The position numbers and the translations under genes are program-made. From positions 1 through 44,173 of the forward strand of contig KL197792.1 in NCBI GenBank assembly GCA_000697665.1: 44,173 bases of DNA, read 5' to 3'. The notes under the pieces are model-generated. The model saw nothing but the letters and a program-made list of their open reading frames with translations. It was not told the origin of the DNA and did not search any database. Within the stretch, counting starts at the first letter, position 1, and the number at the start of each line of letters is the position of its first letter. This DNA is from Jaapia argillacea MUCL 33604. Its lineage: Eukaryota; Basidiomycota; Agaricomycetes; Jaapiales; Jaapiaceae. Below are positions 5,861 to 42,038 of the stretch, in pieces.

Positions 5861-5934
5861 TAAACCCTTGCTTACTAGACTGTGCCCCAGAGGACCCAGG
5901 GAAAGCGCCACTTGCTAGCGGTATCGCTTTTTGA
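5861..5934 (-). ncRNA. Recurrent two-hairpin element, copy A
   Basis: A 74-nt element also found at 14313, 35668 and 41966. On the minus strand it folds as AAAGC/GCUUU around an inner stem with a UAGCAA loop, then CCC, then a second 8-bp stem with a four-base loop, then a fixed tail CUAGUAAGCAAGGGUUUA. In this copy the second stem is CUGGGUCC/GGGCACAG with one mismatch. It lies downstream of an exon ending at 6009 whose donor is GTACGC, so it probably sits at the 3' end of an intron. I know of no family it matches. Confidence 0.5.
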
Positions 5935-6008
5935 TAGGTATCGGCGTACATCCCAGCACCGCGATATAAAGAAAAGAGAGTGGGTAAACGAAAGAAAAGA
6001 GAGCGTAC

Positions 6009-6144
6009 CTGAAGCCATAATACTCTCCAAAACCATCAAGCTTATATATCCTACTTTTGAAGCGATGGGAAGAGTTGCCAGACGCTCAAAGCCAGCAAGG
6101 CTACCGAACGGAGTTCTGACGCTCAACGCAGCATGCTTCAACAT
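6009..6144 (-). pseudogene. Conserved orphan exon in repeat copy 1
   Basis: A minus-strand exon-like segment with the core TPFGSLAGFERLATLPIA ends at a GTACGC donor. The second repeat copy (14467-14599) keeps it with few changes, but there the start ATG is lost. A gene at 35812-36034 has an exon with a similar ending, placed the same way before the same hairpin element, so these may be fragments of one family. The product is not recognised. Confidence 0.35.
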
Positions 6145-6324
6145 TCAACGATGCCAGCGGGCATCAAACAAAGTCTTGCTGCAGAAAGCAAGGCTGAGAA
6201 TCAAAGAGGAATCGAAACAGCATGACTGCTCGACGACTCTTTGAAACCAGTCCTTGAAGAGTATAGGTGAGGGTGAGATGAGGACGGACGAGCAAGTCAA
6301 ACAAGCCAAGTTGGGAATCGGAGA

Positions 6325-6349
6325 TTGCCGGTAAGCAGTCTGTACCGAC
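6325..6349. repeat. CGGTA/TACCG hairpin motif, copy 1
   Basis: Contains TTGCCGGTAAGC and TGTACCGAC, able to pair CGGTA with TACCG. Related copies lie at 14783, 14837, 30125, 38111 and 42157. Confidence 0.45.
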
Positions 6350-6710
6350 ATTTTGCCACAACGGTCCGCGGGAACCGTCTTGTCGCGTCTTGTGCAAGTC
6401 CATCTTTGGGCTTCAAGCTTCAAGCTTCGAGTGTTTCAGCTCAGTTGGAACGTCTCTAGGCTACTTGGCCGTTTCTCTGCGACGTCTCTCACTGTTAACA
6501 TTGCTTGGGCTTGTCCTATCTGTCGCCACCACCTGCAATCTCACTTGTATTTAACTCGTGTTCGCTCATATCATCCTTGGCTCGGCATCCTCGTTCACTT
6601 TCAATCCTAGTCGACCTCGGCCATTCAGAGAACTGGTAGGAGGTTTGCAGGTTGCCCCAGCGGTTTCCCCGTAAACTCCTTACGGTCTCTTCACATCTCG
6701 TCAGGCTTGT

Positions 6711-6857
6711 GGACTTTGGCTTGCTTTGAGGCTAGTTGAGCCGTCCTTCAAAGGTCTCTTGCGATCCGTCTCTTGCGATCCGTCTCTTGCACTCCATTGC
6801 GATCCGACTCATGCGACTTCCATGAGCGGTGTAGTTTTCCCAACCAGTCGCTTCAAC
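6711..6857. repeat. Spacer with short direct repeats
   Basis: GCGATCC plus CTCTTGC units repeat near 6755-6800. This is probably the promoter or leader of the small spliced ORF that follows. Confidence 0.3.
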
Positions 6858-7076
6858 ATGGAGTACAATTACGCCATGTCTGGCTCGGCGAATGTATGGG
6901 CAGATTCGGTTGGAGGGAAACCTGTGAGCCACTGATATACCTAACCGCTTGTTTTGATCCAGTTTATAGAAGAAATCACACAGGGGGCATTGTGTAGATT
7001 ACTTATGGTGAGCTTCGACGATGCAAAAAGAAGGTTTCTACCGGGTTCATCTACTGAAAGAAGTGACTTGTGCTAG
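6858..7076 (+). CDS. Small spliced ORF, orphan
   Basis: An ATG at 6858 opens MEYNYAMSGSANVWADSVGG. A GTGAGC donor after KPFIEE-type sequence and a TTGATCCAG acceptor join it to a second exon ending at the TAG at 7074-7076, giving about 60 aa. The segment ANVWADSVGG resembles STVWADLPGG at the start of the 717-aa protein at 26991-29254, so this may be a fragment of that family. An in-frame ATG 33 nt upstream is possible. It lies just after repeat copy 1, where the second copy has the JmjC-like gene. Confidence 0.35.
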
Positions 7077-7147
7077 GGAGTCGCAGGAGAAGGCGTCAAG
7101 GAGAGTAGAATTGATATTGGAACGATTGTAAAGAGGTAATTACGCAG

Positions 7148-8171
7148 TCAGTATGCACCGCTGTAATCCCAAACGGCTTCGTATTCAATGCCCGTCGTGT
7201 AGGTGAAATCGTTCAAGTACCTTTCTTGCTCTTGGCAAGCCTCAAATATGGTCCTTTTGTCCTCTGCGTATTCAAGGTACGGCTGTAGAACTTTCGCTTC
7301 TTCATCTTCCTCCTCGAGAGCGAACATTGCAACGCGTTTCCACTCCCCCATTTCAAGAATCTCAGTGAGCCGAGACACAACGGCGACTGCGACGTCCCAC
7401 AATGTCACGCCCATCGAGTTGTGAACGAGGGTAGCCGCGATACCCGGAATGATTCGAAGGGAAACGTGGGTGACAGGAGTGGCGGAAAAGAATGAGCAAG
7501 CGGCGGAGTGGTTGCGAAGGGGTTCGTCCATGTCGTGGATGATGAACGTATCGAAAACGTCTGGTTCCTCGGAGCTGACCAAAGTTTCGATATCGCAGTC
7601 CATCTCGCGCGGGATTCGTACATTTGGTAGAGATGGCGATGTATCGATGGGCAGGCCGTAATGTGGGTGCGCAATGAAGGTGCAAGTGTGGCGACGGGAG
7701 CGAATGAAAGTGGTATGACAACGAGGAATGTGGCTGGCAACGAAAAGATAGACTTCGACTGGGAGGAGGGGAGGGGTGAGATCTTCTTCGGTGGGTACAA
7801 GGGTGGTGGTTGGAGGGGCACAACCCAATTGGCGTAACAATTGTATCCAGACGCCATTGTTGTAAATGGTGCGGTATCGAGACGAGGAGGAGGACAAGCT
7901 CCTGTGGGTGATGTAATCACCCGGCGCAATAAGAAGGATTATCGCCGTCACCGTCTCTACAGGGATGTCTGGGAATAAAATGAGGCGTGACAGACGCGAT
8001 ATGACTTGCCTACAACTCACGTTCGATTTGGGCCATACCTGCCGAGGAAGACGCGCTTGGATTGAGTATATCCTCTGCGTCTCTTCTCGTGGAACGAACT
8101 GGGGAGAGAGCTTCACAGGACTGGATGAGGGAGAACTGGTTTGGAATGAGGACAAGCGCACTATAACTCAT
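7148..8171 (-). CDS. F-box-like protein, orphan
   Basis: Two exons, 8021-8171 and 7148-7968, join across a 52-nt intron (GTGAGT donor, TTCCCAG acceptor) to give 323 aa. After a short N-terminus, DIPVETVTAIILLIAPGDY and a following W-x-x-L-L-x-x-L-G resemble the start of an F-box domain. The rest is acidic and has no motif I recognise; it ends in WDYSGAY. An in-frame ATG 11 codons upstream (MSSSAIS) could also start translation, and exons may exist further upstream. The F-box reading is tentative. Confidence 0.55.
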
Positions 8172-8826
8172 GTTTTTCACGGAGATTGCCGATGAGGACA
8201 TGAGGAATCGGACGCTGGTGAAGACTGAGGTAAACGAATGCATATTTCACCTACAGGATGATCGATTGCCGAATGTTGTACATGCTCAAAACATGGAGAA
8301 ATGAAATGGTGATGGCGTTCAGAGGGAGGAGAAAGGGTATTCCAGCACTGACCGGGAGGTCTCCTACGGTCGTTCTTGGTGCGTAAACGCATGAGACGTG
8401 GAAGAAATTGCGTAAGTAACGCAGGGACCAAACAGGGATAGAGCATACTTGCGTTGAGATATCCCCGATCGGGGAATGGTACTTGAATTCGGAGGCGGCA
8501 AGTGAAGTCTACGCACGAGATACGACATGGGTAGGTTGCACGTTCGCCTCGATGTTAAAATGTTTTGAACGGTCAAGGTTCAGGTGGCAACGTGGGGGTT
8601 AGAGAAACCTGCCAAGATGCGACATTTATAGGATTGGGCAGACTATGCTTTGACTACGGAGTTCAGAGAGGTATTAAGCTACAAGTGGACGATACGGATT
8701 GTGAAAGAAAAGTGATCTATGTACACATTGCGTCTCGGAGACGATACAGCTGTAAAAGTAAGTTGGGGAATTGACACTGAGGACATCGTTGGAATCTACA
8801 CGGCTGGGACGAAGCTCCGACTAACC
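8172..8826. other. Spacer with possible minus-strand leader exons
   Basis: Contains donor- and acceptor-like sites on the minus strand and the palindrome at 8461-8477, which ends 12 nt before a GTATGC donor. I could not build a coding model that joins the gene at 7148-8171. Confidence 0.3.
8461..8477. repeat. TTCCC/GGGAA palindrome, copy 2
   Basis: ATCCCC-GA-TCGGGGAAT, a near-perfect inverted repeat. Member of the seven-site set. Confidence 0.45.
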
Positions 8827-10282
8827 CTAAGTGTCCAATGGAAGTCGACCTGCACGCCCGGTAGCTTGGCCATGAAGCCAGCGGAATCGCCGTTTTTTCT
8901 TCTCTACCCACTCGTGGGCAACGGACAACTCATCCTCACCCAACCACGATATACCGACTACATTGGGGAGATCCAAAAGGGGGACGACGTTCTGATGAAC
9001 TGCGTCATCTGAAACGGGGCGAGATACAAACGGCAGACATAACGTGATTGAGGATTCTTGCGGATCCCGATAGATGAGAGTGTCGTATAGGTCAGAAACG
9101 GGAAGAGACCGTGAACGGGGAGACGAGCTTGTAAAGGTGAAGCTTTTTAAGTTGGGTACGGCTCCAGGCCAAGCTAGGATATGGACGAGGAGAGGATAAC
9201 CATCGCACTGGGTAATCATCAGATGTTGCAAAGGATGGAGAGGTAGTGGAGGGGATGAAAGAGTTCCTTGAGGGGGGTCAGGGTTGGAGGATAGCAGGAA
9301 GGTGAATCCGCGCAAGTGGAGTCGAGAGAGATTGGGCATACGACGCAACAAGTCCAGGATTTCGTGGCAAGTTTTGTAAGGGGTCGACATATAGTAGGGG
9401 TCGCCAGGTGAGGTGGTATCAACGGAGAGGTATGTGAGTGCGTTCCAAGTCGGAAATGGCAGTGGAATTTGAGGGCGTGGATAAAACGCCAACTGAGACG
9501 AAGACTGTGGATGCAATGCGAAACCAGCCAGCCTGAAGGTGCGATCGATTTTGATGTGTTTGATGTGAGGCATTCCGAGAGGGAAAAGATCAAAGGCGAT
9601 GACGAGGGGTTGGCGAAGGGACGGACGACAGTTGGAGCAACGTTCGCGCTCGCAGTGTGGACAGAGGACCCGCAAGAAAATGAGGGTTGCAGATACAAGA
9701 CTCGCAGCCCATTTAAGAATCAAATTTCCGATTTTCCTGCAAGTGGAAAAGTCCAAGCTAAACTCGCCAGCGATGGCTGCGGTCATGAGGGACTGCATCT
9801 CTGCGGAGGGAGGATTCCGCAACGTTTTGACGCAGGTGATGTAGATGGGTATTGTCGGAGAATGTTTGCGGCGATGAAGGACGGATGTCGTGAGATCTGG
9901 TCGATCGAGAAAGATAACCCCTTTGGCCGCGGGCATATTTCTAACGACCTGAGCGATGTGACGTGAAATTAAGACGTATGTGGTGAATTCATGGTACCAG
10001 GTGAGGGGTTCGTCGAGGGGAAGGTTTAGGCTGAAGATGGACACGATATGCTCGTTCGACAAAAGGTCGAACGGACGAAACAACTGGTTATGTTGGTCAA
10101 GACCGGCAACGACTGACGGAAATAGGGCGTTACATACGTTCGGCGAATGGCTTGCGGGGTGTGGGTCAAGATGGGTCGTAGGGTGGCAAGGTTGGGATGA
10201 AACGTCGCTGGCGATGTCCTATACGGACGGTCAGTTGATTTGATACGGTTCAGATGCTTGGGGAACATACCGAGGCGTCCAT
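8827..10282 (-). CDS. F-box-like/LRR-type protein, paralog 3
   Basis: Three exons, 10271-10282 (MDAS), 10138-10218 and 8827-10083, with introns of 52 and 54 nt. The product is 449 aa and in frame throughout. FRPFDLLSNEHIVSIFSL begins the F-box-like part. VIFLDRPDLTTSVLHRR, a cysteine cluster (CPHCERERCSNC) and LRR-like strands follow. It is the closest relative of 1969-3400 and shares its exon pattern. It is the second gene of the duplicated pair, 3' of the intact oxygenase-like gene. A role as substrate adaptor is an inference. Confidence 0.8.
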
Positions 10283-11258
10283 TTAAACGTGTATTGGAAT
10301 ACTGGGGAGTTGGTGACTTGTACGGGACTTCTAGTAATATTATCAAAAGGGAGGAGAGTAAAAGAGAGTTGGGCAACGAACCTGAGCGATGGTGGGTGAG
10401 TTTACCGTCGCAAAGTTACCGACGCTTGGGATAAAGTACGCAGGACTCTGTTGATGGCCGGCTGGTGCCTTTACACAAGGTCGAATCCGGCGGTGGATCA
10501 TCCGCTGTGAAAAAAGGAAAGAGTTTTGATGATTGGTCGGGATTTCAATGGATCATAAAACTTGTCACATAAATGGACGGTTGGAAAACCTTGGGACGGG
10601 GAAAGGGTGGATGGACAGTAAGAAGTCAGGAGTAGAAGGAGTTGGGTGACAGCTTACGATACTAGTTGAACTGGAGAGGTATGCGTGGAGAGTCGCCGAT
10701 TGGCTGAGGGCGATTGGCAGTCGATGGGGGTTTGAGGAATGTCTGACGGGTTCGTGTTCCATTGGAATACGATAGGACGGTTCTTCTCCGAGGATTATGC
10801 TTCTTGAGGGGATCCTCAGATGTATCCAGTCATGAGGACATACGTACGTCAAGTGGAGGATCTACGTGATCGTTTCAACGAATTATGATCCGAGGAAGAG
10901 GGAATGTTTATGAAAGCTACTTCGAAAAGGGATGATCAATCGAAATTCGAAGGTGCAAGGGAAGGGGGTAATCCAAAGGCCGGTTCGACGGGACCAGATG
11001 AAACAAGGTCGAAGTTGTTGAGAGAACAAGTACCTCGTTGTGATTCCCAAAAGTTCCCTACACGAATGGTTGCGGATCAAACCCAGTATTATTCACGGAA
11101 CGGAGAAAAGAATTGTACGGTTACATTCGCGAAAAGAGACGAGGCGTCGACAGAGTGTCCCATCATAGAATTACGCATGTTGACGATGGGACGCTTTGTC
11201 ATCGACGGTTGGGAATCTGTCGAGGCAGCTCCGTTAGACTACACTAGACGACGATAAT
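10283..11258. other. Intergenic spacer of the second duplicated block
   Basis: No convincing ORF. Scattered matches to 3401-4446 show it is the sister spacer. Splice-like signals on the minus strand could belong to an untranslated leader of the F-box-like gene. Confidence 0.4.
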
Positions 11259-13603
11259 TTACCCTTGCCGCGCTTGCTCTTCTGGCGTTTTTCCCAGGAT
11301 TTTCCCTTTGGGTCTTCCCATATCTGAAATTGACCATGCAAGGTTAGGGAGAGGGAAGAGAGGTTGACGATGGATAGGCTTACTGGGAGAGCTGGAGGAC
11401 GGTTACCTGATAAGGTGTTGATGTTCCAGCCAGGGGGCTTGTCTTGGAGTAACTTCAACGTCGCTGAATGTGTGAAGAAGACGTGGCCGATTCTGCCTGG
11501 CGTGACATCATTGACAGACTTCTGTCCAACTGCCTTCCAATCGCCGATGGAATGATAAAGAGAGGACGACATGAAGAGGGCAACGTGGCCGGGTTTATAC
11601 CTGATAGAGTGTTAGTCGCTGAACAGAGGTGGCTGAAGATAGCTTACGCCAGTTTCATCCCCAATTGGGGAACGTAAAGCTCTCCGCCGGAGAATTGACC
11701 CAGGGGAAAACATGCGGTAGGACCGGCGTCGTGAGCGTCGGCGTGTGGTTCAACTTGTAGCTTGTATATGATCGCGCGACACATCCAAGGACCAGGATCT
11801 TCTGGAACCCAATTCCCAGCTTCGAAAGCCTTGCGGTATTGCTGATATTCTTGGGGAAATGCGGCTCGAAACATGGCACCAAGTTGAACGGACAGATCTG
11901 TCGTTCCAGTGTAATAGTATCGGACTGCCATCGCCTCCTTTGCCGAGTCGCCCAAGGTGTGCTTGGTTGGTACGGCAGGTCCATTCTGCAGGGGACGTGA
12001 GCGATTTAAGCTTGATCTTGTGGATGAAAAGTACTCACACTGTGCCCGGTTGCGGTCCACACGCCAAAATGAACAAGCCCGGTGAACTCACTGACGGTTT
12101 CGAAATTTAGGGCATCGCCTCCCTGGGGAATTCCTTGCCTGGAATCCAGCTTGTCCTGATCTTTGTGAGCTTGGTACTCCATCCCTCGGGTGTGATTTGG
12201 ATGTCGGATGTCCTTCTTTGCGATGAAAGGGCGGTGGACGGAGTGGTAGTGCTGGGTCACATACTGCCACCGGATCAGATCTTCTTCCTGTGAAGAGGCG
12301 TTAAGAGATGGAGAGAAGCACAACGGATGGAGACTAACCTTGAGTCCATCCCTAGTTATGATCATACCGTTATCTTTGGCTTTCTGGAGGTCTTCTTCGG
12401 TTCTGCCAGCGTATTGTTGAGAGATGTGGGCGTAAGTGGGCTGCTCTTCCCCGAGTTGGACTTCTGGATTGGGTTCGTCGTCGTCGGGGATTGAGGATAA
12501 TGGAGAGAGAGAATCGAGGTCGCTGGTGGGGGAGCGGGGTTCGTGGAACTCCTGTCAATGGGTCGAATTGTCAATGGGTGAAATGGACTGATATAAGGTA
12601 GCGTTACGACTCACATCAGAGAGAACATCGAGGACGGTCTGTCCGGCCGAGAATCGGGGGACTGACCCAAATCGCTGAAACATCATTCAACAAACATCAT
12701 TCGACGCGAGGTGTGAAGACAGAGGGAGATGTTTACCTTTTCGCTGAGGTCGTCATCATCTATGAGCTCTCCCGTTGCATCACCTTGGGAGCTCTCTGGC
12801 TATTTGCAAAAGGTCAGCTGTGGGCGTCGCCTGAGGAAACATGAAAAATGCTTACTAGACTGGGGGGTGGCTCGAGAGACGAGCGGCTGCTTGAAGGCTG
12901 GGAGTACTGAGAAGATATATCGGCATCTTGGGGGGCGTGTATCGAGTCGCCGAAATATACGAAAATGACTTGTCCAGACTTGTCGTGAATGACACTGGAC
13001 AAGACTTGGGAGGGTAGGTTCAACATATCATTGATCTTGTGCTTGGCTTTTTTGAGCCCCTGGGCGTTGATCTGGGCTCGGAGTTCTTCCAAGGTTTCGT
13101 CGATTTGGAAATGGTGTGAATTCGCCATTACTTTTTGGGAGCGAATGAAGGTGCTGGAGTCAAGGCGATGCAAAGCTTGAGCGGTTGTGCGATTGGATTT
13201 GGAGAGGGCCACGGAGAGTGGCAAAGGGCCCTTGGGTCTCGGTACATCAGTTGGCGTCGGTCGTTTCTAACACAAGAGGATGAGTATGGAAAGGTTAGAT
13301 TCAAGATATAAAGTTGACTGACCATTTTTTTGACTCGCGTAAGGTTGGGAGGTGGAGAGAGGCGTCTTTTCTGGAGTGTAAATATGAATAAGTTGCTTCA
13401 ATGAGGGATGCTGCAACAGACTTACTTGGGAGGTTTGGATGGCCCCAGGGATGGCGCCCGACTCCTTTTCCTTGCGAACTCGTAGGTTGTACCGCGTCTG
13501 GTAAAGCCCAATTTATGAGATGACATCTCAAAGTCGGAGTAAGATTAATTACCGCTGCGTTTACGTCCTGGGAGGACTCTGCTCTCTGGGATCTTGTATT
13601 CAT
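11259..13603 (-). CDS. 2OG-Fe(II) oxygenase-like protein, possibly TET/JBP-like
   Basis: Eleven exons close in frame to 587 aa: 13553-13603, 13426-13497, 13323-13370, 12856-13266, 12737-12799, 12615-12674, 12339-12551, 12039-12287, 11648-11985, 11407-11600 and 11259-11323. The C-terminal third carries the double-stranded beta-helix signature: H470-x-D472 in EPHADAHD, then GQFSGGELYVPQLG, YKPGHVALF, the distal H518 in LYHSIGDW and R538 in TPGRIGHVFFTH. This arrangement is typical of the large basidiomycete oxygenase families, which include TET/JBP-type 5-methylcytosine oxidases; which clade is not decidable by eye. The N-terminal half is Ser/Pro-rich and acidic and may bind DNA or partners. 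The start is supported by the paralog at 4447-5226 and by a TATA box 48 nt upstream. It would need Fe(II) and 2-oxoglutarate. Confidence 0.75.
11657..11673. repeat. TTCCC/GGGAA palindrome, copy 3 (coding)
   Basis: ATCCCC-AATT-GGGGAAC. It lies inside exon 9 of the oxygenase gene, coding VPQLGM, 9 nt before the donor, so here protein constraint alone may explain it. Confidence 0.35.
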
Positions 13604-13650
13604 ATCGAAGCGGGTGCGTCTTGCTTGGGCGAACGTTGGATCTTTCTAGA

Positions 13651-13660
13651 AGACTTTATA
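13651..13660 (-). promoter_or_regulatory. TATA box of the oxygenase-like gene
   Basis: TATAAAGTCT on the minus strand, 48 nt upstream of the ATG at 13603. It is identical to the elements at 5265 and 26590. Confidence 0.55.
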
Positions 13661-14126
13661 CTCTAGAAAAAATGTAATCGTAGGTGGGAATGCGGCGTTC
13701 CTTGAACCGAAACGCTCCGCGAGAGCTCTTCTGTTATCCTTCTGTTATTAGAGAACGAGCACCTGAGCGAATCGCAAAGCGTTATCAACGGGAAATCTAC
13801 GGATGGATGAACCACCAAGTTGGATGGAGGGATGGTTATTCCTAACGATAGTTCGGGTGGGATCGGCTTGGATACTGAGCGTGTACAGATAGGGGAGAAT
13901 GGATGCGAATACATTGCGAACGCGGACAATCGTACGACTAGTCTAAAGATGCAGAAACGCAGCGATCACATTGGTCGCACAAAATGAACAAAAAACGAGC
14001 AAAAAACATGATTGAAAGGATTCGGGAGCCTCTCGCAAAGAACCTGTGATTGATTGAGCGAGTGGGAACCAGATTCTGGGAGCGTGGATGAGTTGATCAA
14101 CGAGAACGAACCTATGACGGCGAGCT
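13661..14126. other. Upstream spacer, no gene seen
   Basis: Shares GGTGGGAATGCGGCG with the spacer upstream of the decayed paralog (near 5300), so part of the promoter region was duplicated too. No convincing ORF. Confidence 0.35.
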
Positions 14127-14312
14127 TACCTTGAGCAACAGGAAGCGACGAATCGAATCCTGGGTGCAACGGAGAAGCAACTCGATAACAAAAAAAATAT
14201 GGGGTGAGTAGGCTCGGGATGAAACGAGTAGAGAAAGCGAGACAATCCACGGACGACGAGAAGTATAATGAAATAAAGGTATCAACGACGCTGGGAGGGT
14301 CGAGCTTATCCT

Positions 14313-14386
14313 TAAACCCTTGCTTACTAGACTGTGCCCCAGAGGACCCAGGGAAAGCGCCACTTGCTAGCGGTATCGCTTTTTGA
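14313..14386 (-). ncRNA. Recurrent two-hairpin element, copy B
   Basis: Identical in sequence to the copy at 5861-5934 and part of the same segmental repeat, so it is not independent evidence of conservation. Folding and position relative to the upstream exon are the same. Confidence 0.45.
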
Positions 14387-14466
14387 TAGGCATCGGCGTA
14401 CGACACATCCCAGCACCGCGATATAAAGAAGAGAGAGTGGGGTAAACGAAAGAAAAGAGGGCGTAC

Positions 14467-14599
14467 CTGAAGCCATAATACTCTCCAAAACCATCAAGCT
14501 TACATCTCCTACTTGTGAAGCGATGGGAAGAGTTGCCAGACGCTCAAAGCCAGCAAGGCTACCGAACGGAGTTCTGACGCTCAACGCAGCATACTTCAA
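14467..14599 (-). pseudogene. Conserved orphan exon in repeat copy 2
   Basis: Counterpart of 6009-6144, with the same core TPFGSLAGFERLATLPIA and the same GTACGC donor. A single change removes the ATG present in copy 1, so it is either an internal exon or dead. Confidence 0.35.
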
Positions 14600-14782
14600 C
14601 TTTCAACGATGCCAGCGGGCATCGAACAAAGTCTTGCTGCAGAAAGCAAGGCTGAGAATCAAAGAGGAATCGAAACAGCATGACTGCTCGACGACTCTTT
14701 GAAACCGGTCCTTGAAGAGTATAGGTGAGGGTGAGATGAGGACGGAGGAACAAGTCCAACAAGCCAAGTTGGGAATCGGAGA

Positions 14783-14861
14783 TTGCCGGTAAGCAGTCTG
14801 TAACGACATTTTTGCCACAACTTGTCGCGTCGGAGATTGACTGTAAGCGGTCTGTACCGAC
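14783..14861. repeat. CGGTA/TACCG hairpin motif, two tandem copies
   Basis: Units at 14783-14807 and 14837-14861. Each has lost one pairing base (TAACG in the first, CTGTA in the second), so the doubled unit looks degenerate. Confidence 0.4.
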
Positions 14862-15438
14862 AATTTGCCACAACGGTCCGCGCGGAACCGTCTTGTCGCG
14901 TCTTGTGCAAGTCCATCTTCGTGCTTCAAGTTTGAAGTGTTGCGGCTCGGTTGTTAACTCTCCAAGCTAATTTACTGCTTCTCTGCGCCGGTCTCTCACT
15001 TTCAATCTTGCTCGTACTTGTCTCATCTATCGTTCCTGTCGTCCTTGACTTGATATCCTTGTTCACTGTCAATCCTAGTCGACCGCGCGCCCTCAGAGAA
15101 CTGGTAGGAAGCTTGCAGGTTGCCCCAGTGGTTTCCCTGTAAACTCCTTACAGTCTCTTCGCATCTCCAACAAGTAGCCTCGTCAGGCTGACGGATTGTG
15201 GCGTCGATTCGGTTGTTCACGACTCTGCAAGACCTTTTGCCAGGTCATTCTGACTTGTCCGTCCTCCGTGAGTACATGCCTTTGCCCGAGAGATAGCCGA
15301 CAGCTCCTCCCAATGCTTGAGTGCGTACACGTCCAACATATTGATGCTGACTTTCCTCGTGTGATTTTCCAGAGCATATAGTTTCCTCTCGCATCGATTA
15401 ACGGCCACCTTTCTGCCCTAATTCACACCTGGATTACC

Positions 15439-26565: not shown

Positions 26566-26589
26566 GGGAAAGTTATTCACGATGGTCCA

Positions 26590-29840: not shown

Positions 29841-30026
29841 TTAAGCAAGCCTATCCTCCCTTTTGCACAGGTTACAAGCGCCGGCGATTTTGAATGAGTT
29901 ATGGTAGAAGCAGCGGTGATCGTGGTGGTCGCAGCGTCTGCAAATCACAGGAGATGTGATGAACGGCCGGAACAGCGACCGAGGGATAGAAAGCAGTAGT
30001 TCCAGGCGATTTGAGGGTGAAAGCAA
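29841..30026 (-). CDS. Small putative zinc-binding exon
   Basis: An open frame ending at the TAA at 29841 contains CRRCDHHDHRCFYH, then ACNLCKRE: paired C-x2-C motifs around a His-rich core, as in small zinc-binding domains. There is no ATG in the exon, so an upstream exon must exist if this is real. I see no further domain. Confidence 0.35.
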   Translation of the reverse strand: MLSPSNRLELLLSIPRSLFRPFITSPVICRRCDHHDHRCFYHNSFKIAGACNLCKREDRLA

Positions 30027-32415: not shown

Positions 32416-32463
32416 TTTGACGACCTCGAGGCATACAGTTTACGCCTTGCCTCTGCGACGGGT

Positions 32464-33374
32464 ATGAAGGAACTGAAGCCTAAGATCTTGGCTGCTCCTA
32501 CAACATGGGTAGATGCGCTGAGAGAAAGCGCGACTGGTCAGTCTATGCGGTCGAGGTTGAGTGGGGTTGCGGTACGACCCAAAGATCCCTCTGACAGTAG
32601 AAATTCTTCGGTAAGTTGTGTTACTTTGTGTGAATACATGGACTACAACGCTAATCTCATCCAGTAAAGCCAGAGAGGGCTTTATCGGATTGGAGTGTAT
32701 CCGGAGGGAAACCAACCCCTGAGCCCGGTAAAATGGGTTCTAAAGGGATGATGGTGTGAGTGTCACACTCCCAGATGACGGTCATTTAGCTTACTGTTGA
32801 AACCGATAGGGGGGGAGAGGTCGATGAACAGGACGGCCGAGGGTCAGAGATGGAGGTTGATGAATTGGATGACCCAGGTATGTCGTTCAATAGTTGCGTT
32901 TGAGGCGAGACTGCGAGCCGAGGATTTAGTCACTGTGGGAGGTAAGGATAAGGACAAAGGAGGGGAAGAGGAGAAGGAGAACAAAAGGGGCGACAAGGAT
33001 GGGGAGGTGGTAAAGGTAAAGGTAACGAAAGGGAAAAATAAGGCGAAGGATAAGAAAGTGGTAGAAGACCGTCCACTGACCAAGAAAGGGAGAGTTGCAG
33101 AGGGAAGTGTCGGAAAGGAGGGTATGTTCGTCGGCATCATGCTCGAGAAACACATCTGAAAGAGCGGAATTAGAGAAGGGAAAAGAAAAGGCGGTGGAAG
33201 AAGTCAAGAAAGGAACCGTGAGTGATCTGCGTATAACTTGTCCTGAAATTAATGTAAAGGAACATTTTGCAGAAGACGTCGTCCAAGTCTCGATCCCAAA
33301 AGAAGAGAGTGCGGGAGTCTGATGACGACTCGGAGGTCAGCAAAGTGCTCTACCAGATGATGTTTTGGCATTGA
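32464..33374 (+). CDS. Lys/Glu-rich nuclear-type orphan protein
   Basis: Six exons, 32464-32610, 32670-32755, 32810-32877, 32930-33121, 33165-33217 and 33273-33374, give 215 aa. After an acidic segment (EMEVDELDDP) comes a long charged stretch (GGKDKDKGGEEEKENKRGDK, then VTKGKNKAKDKK), then KSRSQKKRVRESDDDSE, a likely nuclear signal and acidic patch. Two acceptors are not YAG (AAAG before 32670, GAG before 33165), so those joins are less sure. The composition suggests a disordered nucleic-acid-binding protein. It is divergent to the 479-aa gene and may share its promoter. Confidence 0.5.
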
Positions 33375-33724
33375 CGTACCTTTCAAAGACGGAGTCCCGA
33401 CTTGTCGAGAGCATGGTCGCAGGTCCTTCCAAGAGGAAGAAGCGCGGTGATAAACGTGGCGACTGAGGAAGGAATGGGTCAAGTTGCTCAGATTAGCATG
33501 AGCTTGTCGGCGTCTTCCATTGTGTAGACTTATTGGAATGCATATGATGCGATCATTTGATCGCAAGGACTGGGTTGTGCATCTACTTTTTCAGTACAGA
33601 CCAAGAAGGGAATCATCGATATCAAACACTGACAAAACGGTCAAACTCTGACGTACAGGCAAAAGCAGGAGTATAAAGGTACGACGTAGAAAGCGAGAAT
33701 CACGACATCCTTTTGGCATTGACC

Positions 33725-34319
33725 ATGCGACCCCAATCTGTCATCCCGTTCTTCGTGGCTCTGAGGAAGGCCGACTTCAACGAAGAAGCCTATGTCAAGG
33801 AGGAGGGCCAAGAGATGATTGTGAGATTCATAGGTGAAGACGAGAAGTGGAATGCTAACCGCCGGCTTTAGTATAGGGAGTCGACTGGTATCGTCGGTAG
33901 ATCGCAACGGTGGCCGTTGATCCTCACCGGGTTTTGCACCCACCGACCACATCACATACGTGGAGATGACGATCACGGTTGTAGGCCAAGCGATGATTCC
34001 GGGCGTCGGAGTGGGTGGTTGGGCAGGGATATGTATGCCCGCAGGTACTGTTAGGCCTTCATCCAGGGTTAGTCGGCCCATCTCTTTTGCATTAGCGCAT
34101 CTCATATGGGGTGGAAAGTGGGAGTATCGGGGGAGTTTCCAGCTGGCGGTCCAGCAAGATCAACGAACGCTTGTAGGTCAGGGCGTTGTGGGAATTGGCG
34201 AGACTGTTCAGGAGATACAAGACCGCTATGGAAAGGGCGAAATCTGGGTAACCACGACGGGCATGGGGCGTTGGAGCTGTAAAATTACGACAAAGGTCTT
34301 TGTGTTGGTAAAGGGGTGA
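33725..34319 (+). pseudogene. Tandem paralog 1, probably frameshifted
   Basis: Exon 1 (33725-33820) and a GTGAGA intron lead to an exon at 33872. The reading frame in use then changes near 33930-33950. The C-terminal frame (YVEMTITVVGQAMIPG, AHLIWGGKWEYRGSFQLAV, GETVQEIQDRYGKGEIWV, stop at 34317) is clearly coding and contains a 51-nt intron. It aligns with the next gene at GET(V/L)xxxxxR(Y/H)G and TxMGxW. Unless an unusual intron hides the shift, one base has been gained or lost. The family is not recognised. Confidence 0.45.
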
Positions 34320-34494
34320 TCAGATTGTGATGGGTATGCCATGACGTGTATCTTACCTTTGTAACCTTGTCTTGTAGCAGAATCAGATGTTCCCAAACCA
34401 TGAGTTTAATTAATCTGAAAATAGACATCGAATTCCTAGAGTATGAAGCGAAAAAGGGCGGAGCTGGGCTGAGAATGATTGGACGTGAACTTGG

Positions 34495-34500
34495 TATAAA
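34495..34500 (+). promoter_or_regulatory. TATA box of the 34.5-kb gene
   Basis: TATAAAA 18 nt before the first ATG (34513) and 48 nt before an in-frame ATG (34543). The spacing favours the second as the true start. Confidence 0.4.
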
Positions 34501-34512
34501 AGGGAAACACTG

Positions 34513-35176
34513 ATGATGGCGGATTGCTCACCTCGCTCTCCCATGACTACGTTAACGCCAGGATCCGCTGAGCCTACCCAAAGAATTGTCGCAAGAATGC
34601 GTGCAGGGGGAGTGGAAAGGAAAGAGCTGGTGTTTTGGGGTGTACTGGTGAGTTCAAGGTGGAATCAAGGATTGGATTTACACTAACGACGGTTTTGCAG
34701 CATAGAGTGGACGGGATCCCTGACTGCATCGGATGCGGGATGGGCATTCCAATCACGTTCAAGGATGCGGCCGGGTACCAGGACTTGGAGCCTGATGATT
34801 ACATTACGAGCATCTGGGTGGAAGCCTCTTTCACCCCTCGCCTTCTCGGCGGTGACCCAAACTCACTTATGATTGTGTACAGTGGGGAAGGGAAGCCTTT
34901 TTCCCAAGAGCCGGTAAGCTCAGAGTTGTATGTGCAAACTGTAGACTTACCGATCGAGGGTAGCGTTGTGCGTACCACGGTGGGACTAACGACCTAAGAG
35001 AAGAGGTAGTCGATGGGGTGCGACGCTGGGTTGTCAAAATGTTTGCGCCAGTGGGAGAGACTCTCAGGAACTTGCGTGAGAGACACGGCCAGACTACCGT
35101 CTGGGTCATGGGTACCAATATGGGCATGTGGACAGTTGATGTGGAGATTAAAGCCCGCGCATTGAAGGCGGTGTGA
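34513..35176 (+). CDS. Tandem paralog 2, orphan
   Basis: Exon 1 34513-34647 and exon 2 from 34701 read GIPDCIGCGMGIPITFKDA and DDYITSIWVEASFTPRLLGG. The frame then closes at 34997, but a third segment (35006-35176, VVDGVRRWVVKMFAPVGETL, then RHGQTTVWVMGTNMGMW) matches the end of paralog 1, so an intron must join them. The options are GTAAGC at 34915 with a GAG acceptor at 35005 (phase 0), or a shorter intron from GTAGCG. The true start may be the ATG at 34543. The product is about 180-200 aa, with no recognised domain or signal peptide. Confidence 0.5.
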
Positions 35177-35381
35177 AGAGGTATCAGGGGTCAATGAACG
35201 CATCCATCGCAATGGTTATTTTCATTCGACGCAACGGTAGATAACAGATGTATTGGGTTTAATGACGCGACCAATGCATGATCTGCGTTTGATCTGAAGC
35301 GAACCTGGAGGCAAGGATTAGTTATTGAGCGAAGAAAGAGAAGGAAAATCGACAGGTGACGTGACAAAAAGTAGGCCAAGT

Positions 35382-36095
35382 CTACCATTTCTGAACGGTG
35401 GAAGACCTGGAATACGAGGAACTAGTGTGTTGTTTCATGTCAGAGTTTTCCAAGGAAAAAGGGAGAGACTTACGGGAAGGAATGGAATCTGACTGTTTTG
35501 ATACGAGTGCGTTGCCTGACGATGGGTACTTGCCAACGGCGGTAGGAGGTTTCGGGGTGCCCTGGCAACATTAATGTCCGAACAGCGGACTGGTGAGTGG
35601 CACTTTGGGTAGGAACAGGAAACACCCCAGAGGAAAACTGGCGTTCAGGAGAGACATCTGGTACCCCTAAACCCTTGCTTACTAGTCTCGCACCCGAAGG
35701 TACGAGGGAAAGCGCGCTTACTAGCGGCATTGCTTTTTGAACGGGGATCCCAGACATCTCTTTCCTCGCAACCAGAGGCAAAGTGAAAAGGAATTGAGTG
35801 ATGAAACTTACCGTCGGTAGACCTGATCCTCCCAACATTGACCCGACGTAAACTCTAACCAGCGACTCCTGATGGAACGTAGAGTCGGTAAGTGAGAGAC
35901 GGCGTAGCAGCATGGCTGTACGACGGAGCTCTGAGGTACCGTACTCGGAAGGCGGGGTGTGGCGTCGAAGCAGCTTGGTGTTGGGTTTTGAAGTGTGGAG
36001 GTGGAAGAGGGCGTTTGAAAGCCACAAGAAAGGGCTGGAAAGCGTAGAAGTGTGAGTCAGAACAATTGTGAGAGAATGAAACTGATTTACTCACC
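35382..36095 (-). CDS. Orphan spliced gene carrying the two-hairpin element
   Basis: Exons about 36095 and upstream (NNWRYNWDTNLR), 35812-36034, 35474-35673 and 35382-35421. The second reads PFLWLSNALFHLHTSKPNTK and ends GSMLGGSGLPT before a GTAAGT donor. The third reads GLGVPDVSPERQFSSGVF and runs to VRFHSFP. The last ends SSTVQKW. The 138-nt intron between exons two and three contains the 73-nt hairpin element at its 3' end. An acceptor at AAG|GGT keeps the frame; CTAG or TTTAG acceptors nearby would shift it. The 5' end is not resolved and no family is recognised. Confidence 0.45.
35668..35740 (-). ncRNA. Recurrent two-hairpin element, copy C
   Basis: On the minus strand: AAAGC/GCUUU with an inner GC-rich stem and UAGUAA loop, then CUCGUACC-UUCG-GGUGCGAG, a fully paired 8-bp stem capped by UUCG, then the fixed tail. 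Stem bases differ from copies A and D at several pairs but pairing is kept. Confidence 0.55.
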
Positions 36096-36120
36096 GGAGA
36101 TTGGTATCCCAGTTGTACCT

Positions 36121-37088
36121 CCAATTATTGCTTCACCTCCGTGGCTCGAACTCGGTTCGTTGTCGGAGAGAGTGCAGAATTGACCGACGACGAAAAATGG
36201 GCGTGAGCGAATGCCGCGTAAGGGGGCGGGAAAGGATGAAAGGTCGAGTGGTAGGCGTTACAGGAGATGGACAAGCTCAGAGTGAGGCTTGGGTGATGGT
36301 GGTGAATCAGGGTGGTGCGCGTGAATGACAAGTCGGAAGCGCAGACTAGATGATAGAGGTGATGGGGTGGGGTGTTGCACATATCCCGGAATGATGGTGG
36401 AGTTGTGTGTTTGTGGTGCTGGGATGGTGAAGGAGCTGTGAACGAAAATATTGAATTACTGATAATAGCAGAAGAGATCGAGTTGTGACTGACCAGAACG
36501 CTTTAGAACTCTCTGATTCAGGCCAAAACGTTTACCAATTGATGGTTTGTACCTCTCAGCCTATGCCAGCGGTGTGGCAAGAGAGATGATAGGAGGAGGA
36601 AGAGTGCAGGACACGGGATTCATGGAGCGAATTGGGGATCGAGGAATTTGGAGTCACTGGCATCGCCGTGTAGTCGTGGTTTGAGGTCATTGCTGGTTGC
36701 AAAGTCTTGTAAACGAGGGATATTTGTGTTGAAGGAACGGTAGATTAGAATTGGAACGAGAGTGAAGAGAGGACGTGCGGCAATTGGGTGGTTGGAGTGT
36801 GAGTTCAAAGGCGCTTGGTGGAATTTAATCCAAAACGTCATACTGGGCATAGTCCAAGTTGATGATTCCTTTCTTTTAGGAGATTTGAGCATCGTATCTT
36901 TATTAGAATGGTATATACAAATGTTTATGGAGAGACAGGTGTACTGGCGAATTCCCCGAGAAGGGAATGTGAACGTCTATGGGAACTGAAGGAGGCTAAG
37001 ATGTGTACTAAACTGCAAACTCCGGGCTCTCTATGGATGAAACCAATCCTCTTAGGAGGCTTACGACGCTCGCCCTCTAGTGAGTAGT
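36121..37088. other. No secure gene
   Basis: An uninterrupted minus-strand ORF with ATG and stop at 36620-36892 (90 aa, TMPSMTFWIKFHQAP) is the best candidate but has no homologous partner here. The palindrome at 36951-36968 lies just upstream of it. Confidence 0.3.
36951..36968. repeat. TTCCC/GGGAA palindrome, copy 6
   Basis: ATTCCCC-GAGA-AGGGAATG. Member of the seven-site set. Confidence 0.4.
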
Positions 37089-37551
37089 TTATGGTGCAGG
37101 TGAGTTGTTGTGATGGGAGCGTGAGGGTACTGAGTAGGTGCCGAGGTGGGGTGAGGTCTGAGGATCGATCTTAGGGTCGCGCGGAGGGCTTCTGAGATGT
37201 TGAGGGGGTGAAGAAGGGTTTGTGAAGTGGGAGGGAGGAGCTGTCAAAAGTTAACTTGTTAATTAGCAGTAAACGACAGCAGAATGTATACATTGGCTTA
37301 CCTTGACAAAGGAGGGGTTGGGCAAGGGTGTCGTCGGGCGTTGAGTAGGATTGGGCGGATATGAGTGACGGCGGGGTGTTCAGAGGTAGAAGAGAATGGT
37401 ACGAATCGTCGTTGGGGTTCTGGAGGCGAGAGAAAGAACTGGAATTCAAATGTGGGGCGGTTAGTGGGAGAATACATGGGAATTCGAACATGTACTCACT
37501 TGGACTTCAGAGACCTGGGATTCTTATCATGCTGACGGTGCTTTACATTTC
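37089..37551 (-). CDS. Ser/Pro-rich orphan, 5' end missing
   Basis: Exons 37500-37551, 37302-37438 and 37089-37240 join in phase across introns of 61 nt each. They read KHRQHDKNPRSLKSNSFSRL, NPNDDSYHSLLPLNTPPSL, and a Pro-rich tail ending SHHNNSPAP. There is no ATG in the first exon listed, which starts at a TTTCAG acceptor, so upstream exons are missing. It looks like a disordered protein; the function is unknown. Confidence 0.45.
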
Positions 37552-38444
37552 CTGAAATGCCGTAGCTTCCTGGCGGGATGATTGAAGTAGCGTTGGGTTA
37601 TTTTGGGTGGAGGGTGTGAGGAAGTCGGGTGTGGGGAAAGATTGGCGGCTTGGAAGAAGAGAAAGATAGTTGAAAGGGTGGCCGGGAGTGACGAAAGGAC
37701 GTCGTACAGCGTGATTGGGGTGATGGAGAGGGTGGAAAGAAGTGTAGTTTGAAAATGGTTAGTTTGGTCAAAAGTGAAATACGAAGGTTTGTTGACTCAC
37801 ATTGGCAGCCATGACCCTAAGAACTGGTTCTAATACCATTTCCTAACATCTCCTGACATCATGCGGCTACCTTCCAGCGTAAAGGAGGGCGATAGGGAGA
37901 GCGATTGGACACTCGATCCCGGTGGGTATGTAGTCGTGTAGCAGACTTTAAGTGAGTGGAGGGAAAAGAGTGGAGGTTTGCAAAGCATAGTAAAGTGGTA
38001 GATCTGGAGTTTGAAGGGTGAGAGGGTGTCGGGTAGTTGTCAAAAACGCGATGATGGTTGGGACAGAATGATCAAGTGTAGCCAAATGCTGGTGGCCAAG
38101 TCGGCTTGTGGCTGAACCGGCGTTTGCCGGTAAGCAGACTGTACCGACCTGCACTGCGTTCTGGAGCGTCTGAGCTTCACTACATGTGAACGTATGGGTT
38201 GGTATATGGACTGATAATTGTCTCGTTGGTTGTGAGGGCCTTTTATTTAATTATTGGTCGGTTTGAGGAATGAGTAGGAGCGATGAAGGGCGTGTTAAAG
38301 TCAGCAATATTTGATTGATGCAATTTATGGTACTACAAAGGTTGGGAGTATAGAGGAACGTATTGGATGGGAATGGTTATGCGTAGAAAGGTACGAGAGC
38401 TGTGTGATTGTAGGTGAACAGACCAATGTAACTACACTGGTTAT
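37552..38444. other. Spacer with recurrent motifs
   Basis: Holds the CGGTA/TACCG motif (38111-38148) and a block at 37870-37915 that matches 41756-41808 (GGGAGAGCG, CACTCGATC). The two motifs stand in the same order and orientation as at 41.7-42.2 kb, where the two-hairpin element lies between them. No secure gene. Confidence 0.4.
38111..38148. repeat. CGGTA/TACCG hairpin motif, copy 5
   Basis: GCTGAACCGGCGTTTGCCGG then TAAGCAGACTGTACCGAC. Two alternative hairpins are possible: CCGGC/GCCGG or CGGTA/TACCG. Confidence 0.5.
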
Positions 38445-39554
38445 CTACAAATCGTGTGAGGGTGAACCATATAGGGATGGAGAGACGGTGGGAGCATGTC
38501 CAGACTCTATGAAGGGTGAGGAAGGGTGTAAAGGCGTTTGATGCGAAGAGGGACTTACGGAGATCGTAGGGATGACTATCTTGAAAGCTATCAGATGACA
38601 GGCGATTGCGGTCGATGTGAGCTGCAGAAATACGACCACGGATGTCACGAATCTGTTGAACAATGCGGAGTTGATTCGACAACAAGGCAAAGTGTTCTTC
38701 AAGCAACTGATTCGATTCGAGTGCTATGGCTTTTCGACGGTGGTTGATGGTCTCCATGCGAGCGCGTTGAAGGGCATGCAATTTTTGAAGGGAGTCGAGG
38801 TGTGAGTTGTAGGAGAGTAAGATGGCATCACAAGATGGGAGGTCGTGAAACATCGTCCCAAGAGTATGTTCGGAGAGGGTTATGGCGGGAGCTGAGAAAG
38901 AAAATTAGTTATTGGAAGAAGTTCAAGCTGGAAGACATACCAGGGCGCTCTTCAACGGGATTAGGTTGGGTCGCTGTATGCGCATCGCTTGATGATGGAG
39001 CGCTCGAGCGAGGGAGGGGAGAGTGGTGGGGATGTATCTGTTCTGTGGCTTGTGCATTCGCGTCCATGTCCATGTCAAGGACACCGGATTGCATGGCATG
39101 TCCGTCATTGAGATTGTCGTCGAGGACCTCGCCGTCTTGATGTAGAGACTTGTTGGCACTGTTGCTCCCGGCTGCCTCGCTCCCATCGACATCACCGCCA
39201 GCAAGGCCGCTCCCAACTACTTCTCTCCCAAGGACATGGTCGACTTGAAGGGCAGGGTCATCTGCGAGAGGAACATTACCTGCATCATGACGGACTGGAA
39301 CTGAGGCGACTGGACCACCGTTCTGAGTAGCAGTGCCATAGATCTTCCCAGGGTGGACAGGATCTACTGGCGAGTGGGTGGGTTCAGCGAGAGTGGCAAC
39401 GGGATGAGACGCCAATGAGTCTGTCATGACAGAGTCCAAAAGGTCGGACGGGATATCAGGAAGATCGCTCTGAGGAAATTGATTCCATAGTGAGTCGCTA
39501 ATGAGAGAAATGAGAATGTTAATGGTAGTAATAGGAGAGGACTGACTCTGACAT
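38445..39554 (-). CDS. Orphan 319-aa protein with a coiled-coil-like region
   Basis: Four exons, 39547-39554 (8 nt), 38941-39497, 38559-38891 and 38445-38506, with introns of 49, 49 and 52 nt, all in phase. The first half is acidic and low in structure (VHPGKIYGTATQNGG, DMDMDANAQATEQ). The third exon has a long charged helix: LDSLQKLHALQRARMETINH, RRKAIALESNQLLEEHFALL, SNQLRIVQQIRDIRGR, likely a coiled coil and so an interaction surface. Clean introns and balanced codon use support it. The short first exon follows from the phase of the GTCAGT donor at 39546. Function unknown. Confidence 0.65.
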
Positions 39555-41755
39555 CTTGGACGGACGTGATAATCGCGTAGCCAAAACGAATTGGGGCTTT
39601 ATGGGTGGAGGACGCGACGGGACTCGATGGGCGTTCGAGGTTAACCGAGTAAGAGAGAGGGTGAAGAGAAGTTGGGAGAAATAGAAGGTAAAGAAGCGTA
39701 CTTGTGAGGGGATCCACATGTGGACCGAGCCATTTCGAAGTTGAGGCTAGAATTTTTGGTCCATATGGATGAGATGATATTCAAGTTTAAGGGATAGTGG
39801 TGGGCGACGATGTGGATTGCAATGTAGTCCGAGTAGAAGGAAAGGACGGGTGCAGGCCATGTAAGATGGGATGTGCGAGAATAAAACGGAGCAGAAAGGG
39901 GACGTGCCGATAGATTGGAAGAGGAAGCAGTGGTATTTGGAGGAAAGAGCCCCCGAATAACTGATGGGAGAAGTTGACATACCATAAATGCATTTTCCCC
40001 TGCCAGCTTCGCCATTCCCCAAAAGGGGGATGGAAGCTTGATGGGGAGGCCGACTTCTTGGGTGATACATGGCAAGTCTGGAAATCAGAGGTGTTCTGAC
40101 AAGCATGGCTGTCTGAACATCACTCTGAAGAGCAGTACTTGGGGCGTAGGCGAGGAAACGAAGTTTCAACCTTGACTGGACATCAAGTCGAATTCGAAGC
40201 CTGATTGAGAGATGACGTCACGAGCTATCTGGTAACTGTGTCGACTGATTGCGCGTGGATGTCGAATTTGCATGGGGATCAGAAAAGTAGGTACAGCTGA
40301 GATGGTGGCTTGATCTGGGAGGGTCGACTGGCATGAATTCTCACCTCACACTTTGAGACATGGCTCCGAATATTTGAGGTCTTGAAAGTAGTACAGATAT
40401 ATGGCATAAATGGGAGAATAAGCGAAGAATGGGTTAGGAGTGGTTTGCAGTGCTCATCGTGGTTGGTGCACTCGACAATGTCCGAAGTGAGGTCATTTCA
40501 AACTCCGTGCACAGGACTTACCTTGGTCGCCCATGCTGCTCGTACTCGATGCTCGTGTTCAGAGTTGAAGGCTAAACTGATTATATCATAAATTCTCTCT
40601 CAAGTAATAAATACATGTTTGTATCATGACTACTTGAACGCATAAAAATCTCTGCAAGCGGTCGAGAAATAGACGTGGAACTGAAATGGAAATGAGTACT
40701 CTAAGCGTACATCAGGGATTGGATGTTGCAAATAGGTGGTCGGGAGATGCGTCAGCCTCCAAATCTAAAACTGTGTCCTAAGGACGAATGCGAGAAGGCG
40801 TGAGGTGAGGAGGGTGGGGTAGGATGGTGGGAGGCAGGTTCATAAATGCGAACAAGACCGGTACCCTCAGTGAGGGCACCAGTTGGAATGAGGTATTATT
40901 GGTGGTAGGAAGTAGGATTGAACCTATCGCGACCGCTACAAAAGCAATTGCGAGGGTCGTATGTCGGGGGTTAGCTGGGTTGGTCAGAGTCGAGTTTGCG
41001 TGTGGTTGAGACGAGGCTGGTAGTGGGATAAGGTCAGAAGGGTTGCAAGAGTGACATAAACACGAATAACAACAGACTTTTTGACATACCATGAGACCGT
41101 ATACTCGTCGTGTGATGCCCATTGACCCCCTACTACATCCCTAGTATGAAGGCAGCTCATTTCGATCGGGGGCGCGGAAGTTCGAGTCGTGGTAGGCGGG
41201 GAGTGGATAGGGTGCGAGTTGAAGTGAATGGACGCGTGGTAGACGAAGCTGCTGCTTCGTCTGGTGTTCTTGGTCGCTCAGAAATCGTCCTCGGTGATAT
41301 GCAACCAACAGCGAGGCCGGTGCTGCATTGGTTGGAGGGAAGTGGTTGTTGAGGTATTGGGTCGAGTCCGAGTTTGCGGGGTTGGCGATACGCAAGGTGT
41401 CGTTATATAGCGTCGTTTGTGGTCGTGAGAATGGTGTGAAATAGATGAAAAGTCAAACGGGCAGCCATAAGGGCAACCTGAGTTGATATCGGGGGAGGGC
41501 GGGGAGTGGTTGAGTGATGCACGGGTTCGGCTGTTCGGATGGCAAAAGTGGGTGTTGCGGCAGTGTCTTATTGACCAGGAGATGTGGTGGGACGTGTGGA
41601 TGGATGGGTAGAGGCAGTGGAAAGACTATAAAATCGAAAATGAGCCAATTAGTATGAAAAAGACAAAAAATTGAATATCTTATTGACCTTCGCATCCGAG
41701 ACCTCAATTCTGAGCCCAACTAGTCCTCCAATAGCTCCCTGGCCTATGCCAGCTT
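39555..41755. other. Gene-poor stretch, scattered minus-strand exons possible
   Basis: 40091-40146 matches the motif at 29693-29747. The palindrome at 40014-40031 lies 32 nt before a GTATGT donor on the minus strand. A minus-strand frame at 40778-41030 (TTLAIAFVAVAIGSIL, a possible membrane segment) is opposed by an open plus-strand frame over the same bases, so I call neither. Confidence 0.3.
40014..40031. repeat. TTCCC/GGGAA palindrome, copy 7
   Basis: ATTCCCC-AAAA-GGGGGAT. Member of the seven-site set. Confidence 0.4.
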
Positions 41756-41965
41756 CGTTCCAGTGACTTGAGAGGGTGGGAGGGAGAGCGCGCGGGCACT
41801 CGATCTGGGGAGAAGGGCGAACGGCGCCAATTCGTTCGGAGACGTTGTTGCGATGGGTTGCGTGTCGTTGAAATCATGAGAAGGGTGTAGATGTATGATA
41901 AGGACAAGCAAATGAAAGTAAGAAGACTCACTGGATGTGATTCGAGAGTTACTATGCGCTGTCCC

Positions 41966-42038
41966 TAAACCCTTGCTTACTAGACTCGAGCACGAGGCTC
42001 GAGGGAAAGCGCCACTTACTAGCGGTATCGCTTTTTGA
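41966..42038 (-). ncRNA. Recurrent two-hairpin element, copy D
   Basis: Minus strand: AAAGCG/CGCUUU, bulge AUA, CCGC/GUGG, loop UAGUAA, then CUCGAGC/GCUCGAG (7 bp), then CUAGUAAGCAAGGGUUUA. It is followed 40 nt on by a likely donor GTGAGT at 41936. Upstream lies the CGGTA/TACCG motif. Confidence 0.55.

Follow-up and report, generated by a model that had tools for sequence, protein, structure and literature searches.

The question raised by the first 44,173 bases of contig KL197792.1 (here C84) of Jaapia argillacea MUCL 33604 is what a short element that recurs there, 73 or 74 nucleotides (nt) long, might be: a structured RNA, a mobile intron, a DNA hairpin or a piece of coding sequence. Throughout, the window denotes this whole stretch (bases 1-44173), which belongs to an assembly of 43.7 Mb in 95 contigs. 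A preliminary description, made from the letters alone, had listed copies at 5861, 14313, 35668 and 41966 and had proposed an intron-borne structured RNA, a ribozyme or a spreading intron module. A structured RNA on the minus strand was supported by three results, namely covariation in one stem of the element (P3), a closing stem whose letters are specific to each locus, and an excess of G-U over A-C mismatches. The reading favoured here, with a probability of roughly one half, is that the element forms the head of a structured RNA, 138-159 nt long and acting in cis, within minus-strand pre-mRNAs, where it would be carried in introns or leaders of local genes.

Copies and fold of the conserved head

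All four copies were recovered computationally where they had been described, with lengths of 74, 74, 73 and 73 nt:

5861..5934, minus strand: conserved head, copy 1; same duplication as copy 2
14313..14386, minus strand: conserved head, copy 2; same duplication as copy 1
35668..35740, minus strand: conserved head, copy 3, in which P3 is CUCGUACC-UUCG-GGUGCGAG
41966..42038, minus strand: conserved head, copy 4, with hairpins P2, P3 (CUCGAGC/GCUCGAG) and P4 (sequence and fold comparison)

Three of the copies are independent, as had been stated, since a block of about 740 nt within a tandem duplication is common to those at 5861 and 14313. The head consists of three hairpins: P2 (AAAGC...CGCU-loop-AGYG...GCUUU), P3 and P4 (UAAGC-AAGG-GUUUA). 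The single strands had been called exact. This held for the letters of CUAGUAAGCAAGGGUUUA, which are identical in all four copies, and nearly so for the P2 loop, which is UAGCAA at 5861 and 14313 but UAGUAA in the other two; the tail, however, is predicted to form hairpin P4 and not a single strand. CUAGYAAG is found twice in the head, once in the P2 loop and once, in the form CUAGUAAG, on the 5' side of P4.

The arms of P3 read, by locus, CUCGAGC/GCUCGAG, CUCGUACC/GGUGCGAG and CUGGGUCC/GGGCACAG, and three of its eight column pairs are altered on both sides. The earlier statement that this second stem changes its sequence yet stays paired was thus borne out, although not perfectly, there being one G-A mismatch in the 5861/14313 pair and a failed eighth pair in 41966. 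Covariation was assessed on an alignment of four rows, two of them nearly identical, with a structure derived from the same rows, so that its power is modest. The covariation score of the alignment was reached by none of 500 shuffles, and its share of paired cells (92%) by one of 500; the number of pairs altered on both sides was reached by 38 of 500. When the pairing partners were slid by 1-3 columns, the paired cells fell from 92% to 21-48%. RNAalifold, given the three independent rows, returned a four-way fold with -28.2 kcal/mol on the minus strand versus -22.5 on the plus strand. Compensatory changes across independent copies, by which a conserved structured RNA is recognised, are therefore present here, in few sequences.

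Closing stem and whole unit

The flanks of the head pair into a closing (basal) stem, P1, written in unrelated letters at each independent locus; neither P1 nor P4 had figured in the preliminary description. In the predicted unit of 138-159 nt, a junction head that keeps its sequence sits on a stem that keeps only its pairing, and between independent loci sequence likeness is confined to the head. Flank pairing was compared with 3000 random places in the window by recording the fraction that paired as well as the locus, using arms of 25, 45 or 60 nt. The units, with the minus-strand fractions for 45-nt arms, are as follows:

41926..42084, minus strand: head and long closing stem P1, copy 4 (the entire predicted unit of 159 nt); matched by 0 of 3000 random places
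35638..35775, minus strand: head and closing stem P1, copy 3 (138 nt); 0 of 3000
14280..14423, minus strand: head and closing stem, copy 2 (144 nt), with a weaker stem and a lowest-energy fold other than the consensus head; 0.17% of 3000
5828..5966, minus strand: head and closing stem, copy 1 (139 nt), with a lowest-energy fold other than the consensus head; 2.3% of 3000

With 25-nt arms the corresponding fractions were 0.5% (41966), 0 (35668), 1.3% (14313) and 0.9% (5861), and with 60-nt arms the first three were 0, 0.3% and 2.8%. Under Watson-Crick scoring alone the arms scored 15, 11, 10 and 8, against a mean of 7.2 (standard deviation 1.6, maximum 16.5) in 5000 controls. Minus-strand units of 150 nt, compared with 200 shuffles, gave z-scores of -6.3 at 41966, -3.4 at 35668, -1.3 at 14313 and -0.8 at 5861, the first two beating all 200 shuffles; at 101 nt the z-scores of those two were -2.6 and -2.9. 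Among 2201 steps of 170 nt on the minus strand, the steps covering the 41966 and 35668 units ranked 2 and 8. By computation P1 is strong at two of the three independent loci; these two are well supported, and the third looks weakened or decayed.

Strand of the proposed RNA

Mismatches were counted in Watson-Crick-only alignments of the arms and P3 at the three independent loci, leaving out 14313. Read on the minus strand, the transition mismatches in helical context comprised 11 G-U and no A-C (binomial p 0.0005). The same procedure applied to the arms of control places gave ratios of 140:191 over 386 overlapping places and 40:46 over the 90 best, and only one of the 386 overlapping places had at least three G-U and no A-C. 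The earlier observation that the odd pairs are G-U only on the minus strand therefore stood for mismatches in helical context. Such strand-specific wobble supports a minus-strand RNA, and the excess of G-U over A-C speaks for selection on that RNA more than for an inverted repeat evolving neutrally as DNA.

Several results weigh against the favoured reading. P4 is invariant (none of its five pairs varies), so covariation neither supports nor refutes this hairpin, and 9 of the 11 P2 pairs are invariant as well. RNAalifold loses the closing stem when given all four rows, having kept it with three. The lowest-energy head differs from the consensus at 5861 and 14313 (2.1 kcal/mol apart) and also at 35668, by 0.7 kcal/mol. 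The arms of copy 1 are ordinary under Watson-Crick scoring alone, 16% of random places pair as well with 60-nt arms, and 39 of 200 shuffles fold as well at 150 nt (18 of 200 for 14313), while the 101-nt z-scores are +0.7 at 5861 and +1.1 at 14313. The plus strand is not featureless, its 45-nt flanks being matched by only 0.07% (41966), 2.2% (35668), 1.0% (14313) and 2.2% (5861) of random places, and its 150-nt unit at 41966 giving a z-score of -4.4 (-1.1 at 35668). Counting every mismatch lowers the G-U to A-C ratio to 11:3 (p 0.029). The host introns described below were read from the sequence by eye and are candidates only. Finally, the independent copies number only three, and all lie on C84 no more than 36 kb apart.

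Occurrence in the genome

Counts from genome searches refer to the readable part of the assembly (22% of letters were unreadable in a 200 kb sample). A DNA similarity search returned the four window copies and no others, and three two-part patterns built on P2 and the P3-P4 part found four sites on C84 and none elsewhere, the reversed controls giving 0, 0 and 1. The invariant 18-mer, allowing up to three mismatches, occurred at 26 sites (the four copies exactly, one site with two mismatches and 21 with three), versus 35 for its reversed control. A covariance model of the element (R1) recovered the four copies in the window, the next best match having an expectation value (E) of 0.71. When applied to 20 stretches of other contigs, each 10 kb long, it gave one weak match (11.9 bits, E 0.38; E 0.025 over 13 kb alone), tentatively taken as chance, and on six further loci one match of 8.1 bits (E 0.48). 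The latter is the two-mismatch 18-mer site; it lies on contig C12, and the sequence around it is no more stably folded than shuffles. No exact pattern match to the element was found in the viral and prokaryotic genome collections. The preliminary description had held that a lack of further copies across the genome would speak against it, and no convincing one was found in the readable part; with four copies there in all, a spreading intron module is not supported.

The block shared by copies 1 and 2 (window 5686-6423 and 14140-14936), much of it apparently non-coding, has 92-100% identity over the ungapped columns of each 50-column step, one 54-nt repeat difference excepted. The duplication is less alike outside the block, most of its other matching blocks having 73-85% identity. 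The high identity suggests that gene conversion or strong constraint may have acted on the block. Outside the element, the locus at 35668 showed no similarity to the other loci better than E 0.05, and that at 41966 has one separate upstream motif in common with 5861 and 14313.

A foreign origin of the contig was considered and not supported, its G+C content and dinucleotide make-up lying within the range of 14 sampled stretches (6 of 20 with many unreadable letters having been left out). G exceeds C on the plus strand in 42 of 44 one-kilobase steps of the window (1-44173); a strong G/C skew was seen in 2 of the 14 sampled stretches of other contigs, both on small contigs.

Genomic setting

Splice signals were read by eye on the minus strand around copies 1 to 3, and two possible host introns were delimited (slashes mark the proposed splice junctions):

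5706..6008, minus strand: possible host intron of copy 1, CAG/GTACGC ... CTACTCAC ... CACCCAG/
35562..35811, minus strand: possible host intron of copy 3, ACG/GTAAGT ... ACTCACC ... GTTGCCAG/; other acceptors are possible

At 5861 and 14313 the signals comprise a putative first exon ATGGCTTCAG, the donor GTACGC, a branch-like CTACTCAC, a run of T and the acceptor CACCCAG. Removal of the candidate intron of copy 1 would fuse ATGGCTTCAG, the 10-nt first exon, in frame with a 30-nt exon at 5676-5705, and the high-identity block shared with copy 2 ends near the end of this candidate exon. At 35668 the donor-like GTAAGT precedes the element, and the branch-like ACTCACC with GTTGCCAG follows it. The element at 41966 lies between the upstream motif and a dispersed sequence family. 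An intron-borne position, as had been suggested, is therefore plausible at 5861/14313 and 35668 from these candidate signals; 41966 has no clear intron placement. At 5861/14313 and 35668 the element would lie in a first or early intron of a local gene, and at 41966 in a 5' leader.

The dispersed family (window 41500-41872) has matches on nine other contigs at 68-81% identity. In six of these nine places the likeness starts at 41805, the last base of a CCCCAG, and one match reaches 41872. At three of the nine places the adjoining 380-400 nt or so on the upstream side were compared; these three sequences are alike among themselves and unlike 41966, and R1 found no element in them.

A second repeated motif, built around CCGGTAAGCAGACTGTACCGAC with inverted CGG/CCG triplets, occurs at 6309-6349, 14767-14807, 14821-14861, 38108-38148 and 42154-42194. 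Three copies of the element have it upstream on the minus strand, whereas its occurrence at 38108 has no element beside it. DNA searches placed it on C84 only, and it may be a promoter site. A further strong hairpin was found on the minus strand at window 6130-6260, in the conserved block upstream of copy 1 (z-score -3.8, one of 200 shuffles being as stable); of the 2201 steps of 170 nt on this strand, that at 6084 ranked 3 and its twin at 14544 ranked 7. Several irregular copies of a GACAGTGTCG-like word lie in a G-rich stretch at window 42544-42980.

Comparison with known RNAs

Rfam 15 gave no match in the window at the curated threshold. With E up to 5 there was one match, away from the element (sR41, 21.8 bits versus 54), and the tRNA finder, in its bacterial-code setting, found no genes. 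A literature search for the element returned nothing describing it among the entries listed, and a term search in PMC4457414 gave no match.

According to excerpts of PMC5640933 and PMC8216456, fungal introns and leaders carry structured RNAs, such as those of the lysyl-tRNA synthetase intron or 5' untranslated region (UTR), the RPS13 intron, rpl7-l8-s3 and hexA. The element resembles them as a structured RNA of introns or leaders found via conserved pairing. In those excerpts the known motifs are tied to particular genes or kinds of gene across several species, whereas the element occurs at three unlike loci on one contig; unlike them, it has a long locus-specific stem and no Rfam match. That an RNA located in a leader intron can govern splicing is proven in fungi, the case being the thiamine pyrophosphate (TPP) riboswitch in 5' UTR introns (PMC8216456, in excerpt). 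The element would share this setting, and differs in that the window has no TPP match. Since structured RNAs in fungal introns and leaders are known, the element would be of a known kind, and its family seems new.

Alternative explanations

The most probable of the alternatives is a stand-alone structured RNA, snoRNA-like or a small-RNA precursor, cut by way of the long stem from a host transcript with the head as product. The long stem at 41966 fits such processing, and excerpts of PMC5640933 and PMC8216456 give intronic precedents in fungi (an atypical small nucleolar RNA, or snoRNA, and an intronic H/ACA RNA), yet the element matches nothing in Rfam and no C/D or H/ACA box pattern was seen by eye; this alternative is unlikely. 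We consider it improbable that the hairpin acts at the level of DNA and is bound by a recombinase or transposase, either in the single-stranded minus strand or as a mobile element with inverted repeats. G-T wobble would be tolerated equally in single-stranded DNA of that strand, and some open reading frames of the window are, from their translations, presumably genes of mobile-element type; among 20 that were scanned, one, a helicase, reached the Pfam cut-off. The conserved sequence is nevertheless central and not at the ends, and at two loci the splice signals seen by eye are consistent with a transcript. A self-cleaving ribozyme of an undescribed class would account for the multi-helix junction, the invariant stretches and the one stem free in sequence. 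No Rfam ribozyme matched even with E up to 5, so the earlier suggestion gained no positive support; invariant stems like P2 and P4 are, moreover, unusual for known small ribozymes, and the idea is very improbable. Scarcely credible is a conserved protein-coding exon, even though each copy is spanned by one open frame on the minus strand, reading QKA(I/M)PL in all four. The one-base difference in length shifts the frame between the 5861/14313 pair and the others, the invariant tail is read in different frames and so is not explained by protein coding, and the changes in P3 are compensated at the RNA level.

A symmetrical intron or introner-like element of the stwintron (nested intron) kind, self-inserted with terminal inverted repeats, is distinctly unlikely. 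At 41966, arms of 46 and 40 nt flank a centre of 73 nt, an arrangement that recalls the sister stwintrons of Hypoxylaceae, of which the abstract of PMC9024468 names 36 and whose terminal inverted repeats, according to excerpts of PMC8469720, are 45-55 nt long and in one example 102 nt apart. These sister stwintrons and fungal introner-like elements are likened to the element by long inverted arms around a centre and by junctions of CTAG with TAAG (PMC8469720, in excerpt); in the element, CUAG followed by UAAG occurs twice. Both had been noted as possible stwintron junctions, yet no fungal-type branch-site-like sequence was seen by eye before either CUAG. The published family, in the same excerpts, comprises many copies alike in sequence, is recognised by intron sequence similarity and has arms that decay in older copies, whereas here the arms differ between loci, the centre is kept and there are four copies within 36 kb. 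Many similar copies in unrelated genes, as expected of introner-like elements, were likewise not found in the readable genome, where all four lie on one contig. The neighbourhood of 38108, partly like that of 41966 and without the element, was considered as an empty site: the two align in two blocks spaced 348 versus 189, a difference of exactly the 159 nt of the unit. Insertion was not supported, the global alignments having scattered gaps, the unit-deleted sequence aligning no better than shuffles (score 1.0 versus a mean of 1.1, standard deviation 5.7) and the unit ranking 13 of 190 deletions of that length.

Proposed mechanism and significance

For a cis-acting structured RNA in minus-strand pre-mRNAs, the following mechanism is proposed. 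The flanks would zip into the basal stem P1, with letters specific to each locus, and P1 would carry a four-way-junction head made of P2 (UAGYAA loop), P3 (sequence free so long as it pairs) and P4 (UAAGC-AAGG-GUUUA), holding it out of the transcript. As a guess, a protein or small ligand might bind the invariant parts of the head, and binding there might change how the host intron is spliced or whether it is retained. Of these steps the fold is the better supported; the location in introns or leaders is probable from the setting, and the trans factor and the splicing effect are guesses. A more elaborate version is quite improbable: a new class of regulatory RNA carried in introns, restricted to a single gene neighbourhood and acting as a eukaryotic riboswitch or a switch that senses a protein. 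The two splice-site-like CUAGUAAG motifs of its invariant head would then toggle recursive or alternative splicing in several unlike genes at once. Recursive splicing from the doubled CUAGUAAG motif was not adopted because no branch-like site was seen by eye before either one.

If the favoured reading is correct, several unlike neighbouring genes of one genome would share a private structured RNA, conserved in sequence in its head and elsewhere in pairing only. It would be a local device for RNA-based co-regulation, of a sort that is to our knowledge rare in eukaryotes, and would allow a direct test of the part that intron structure plays in the control of splicing.

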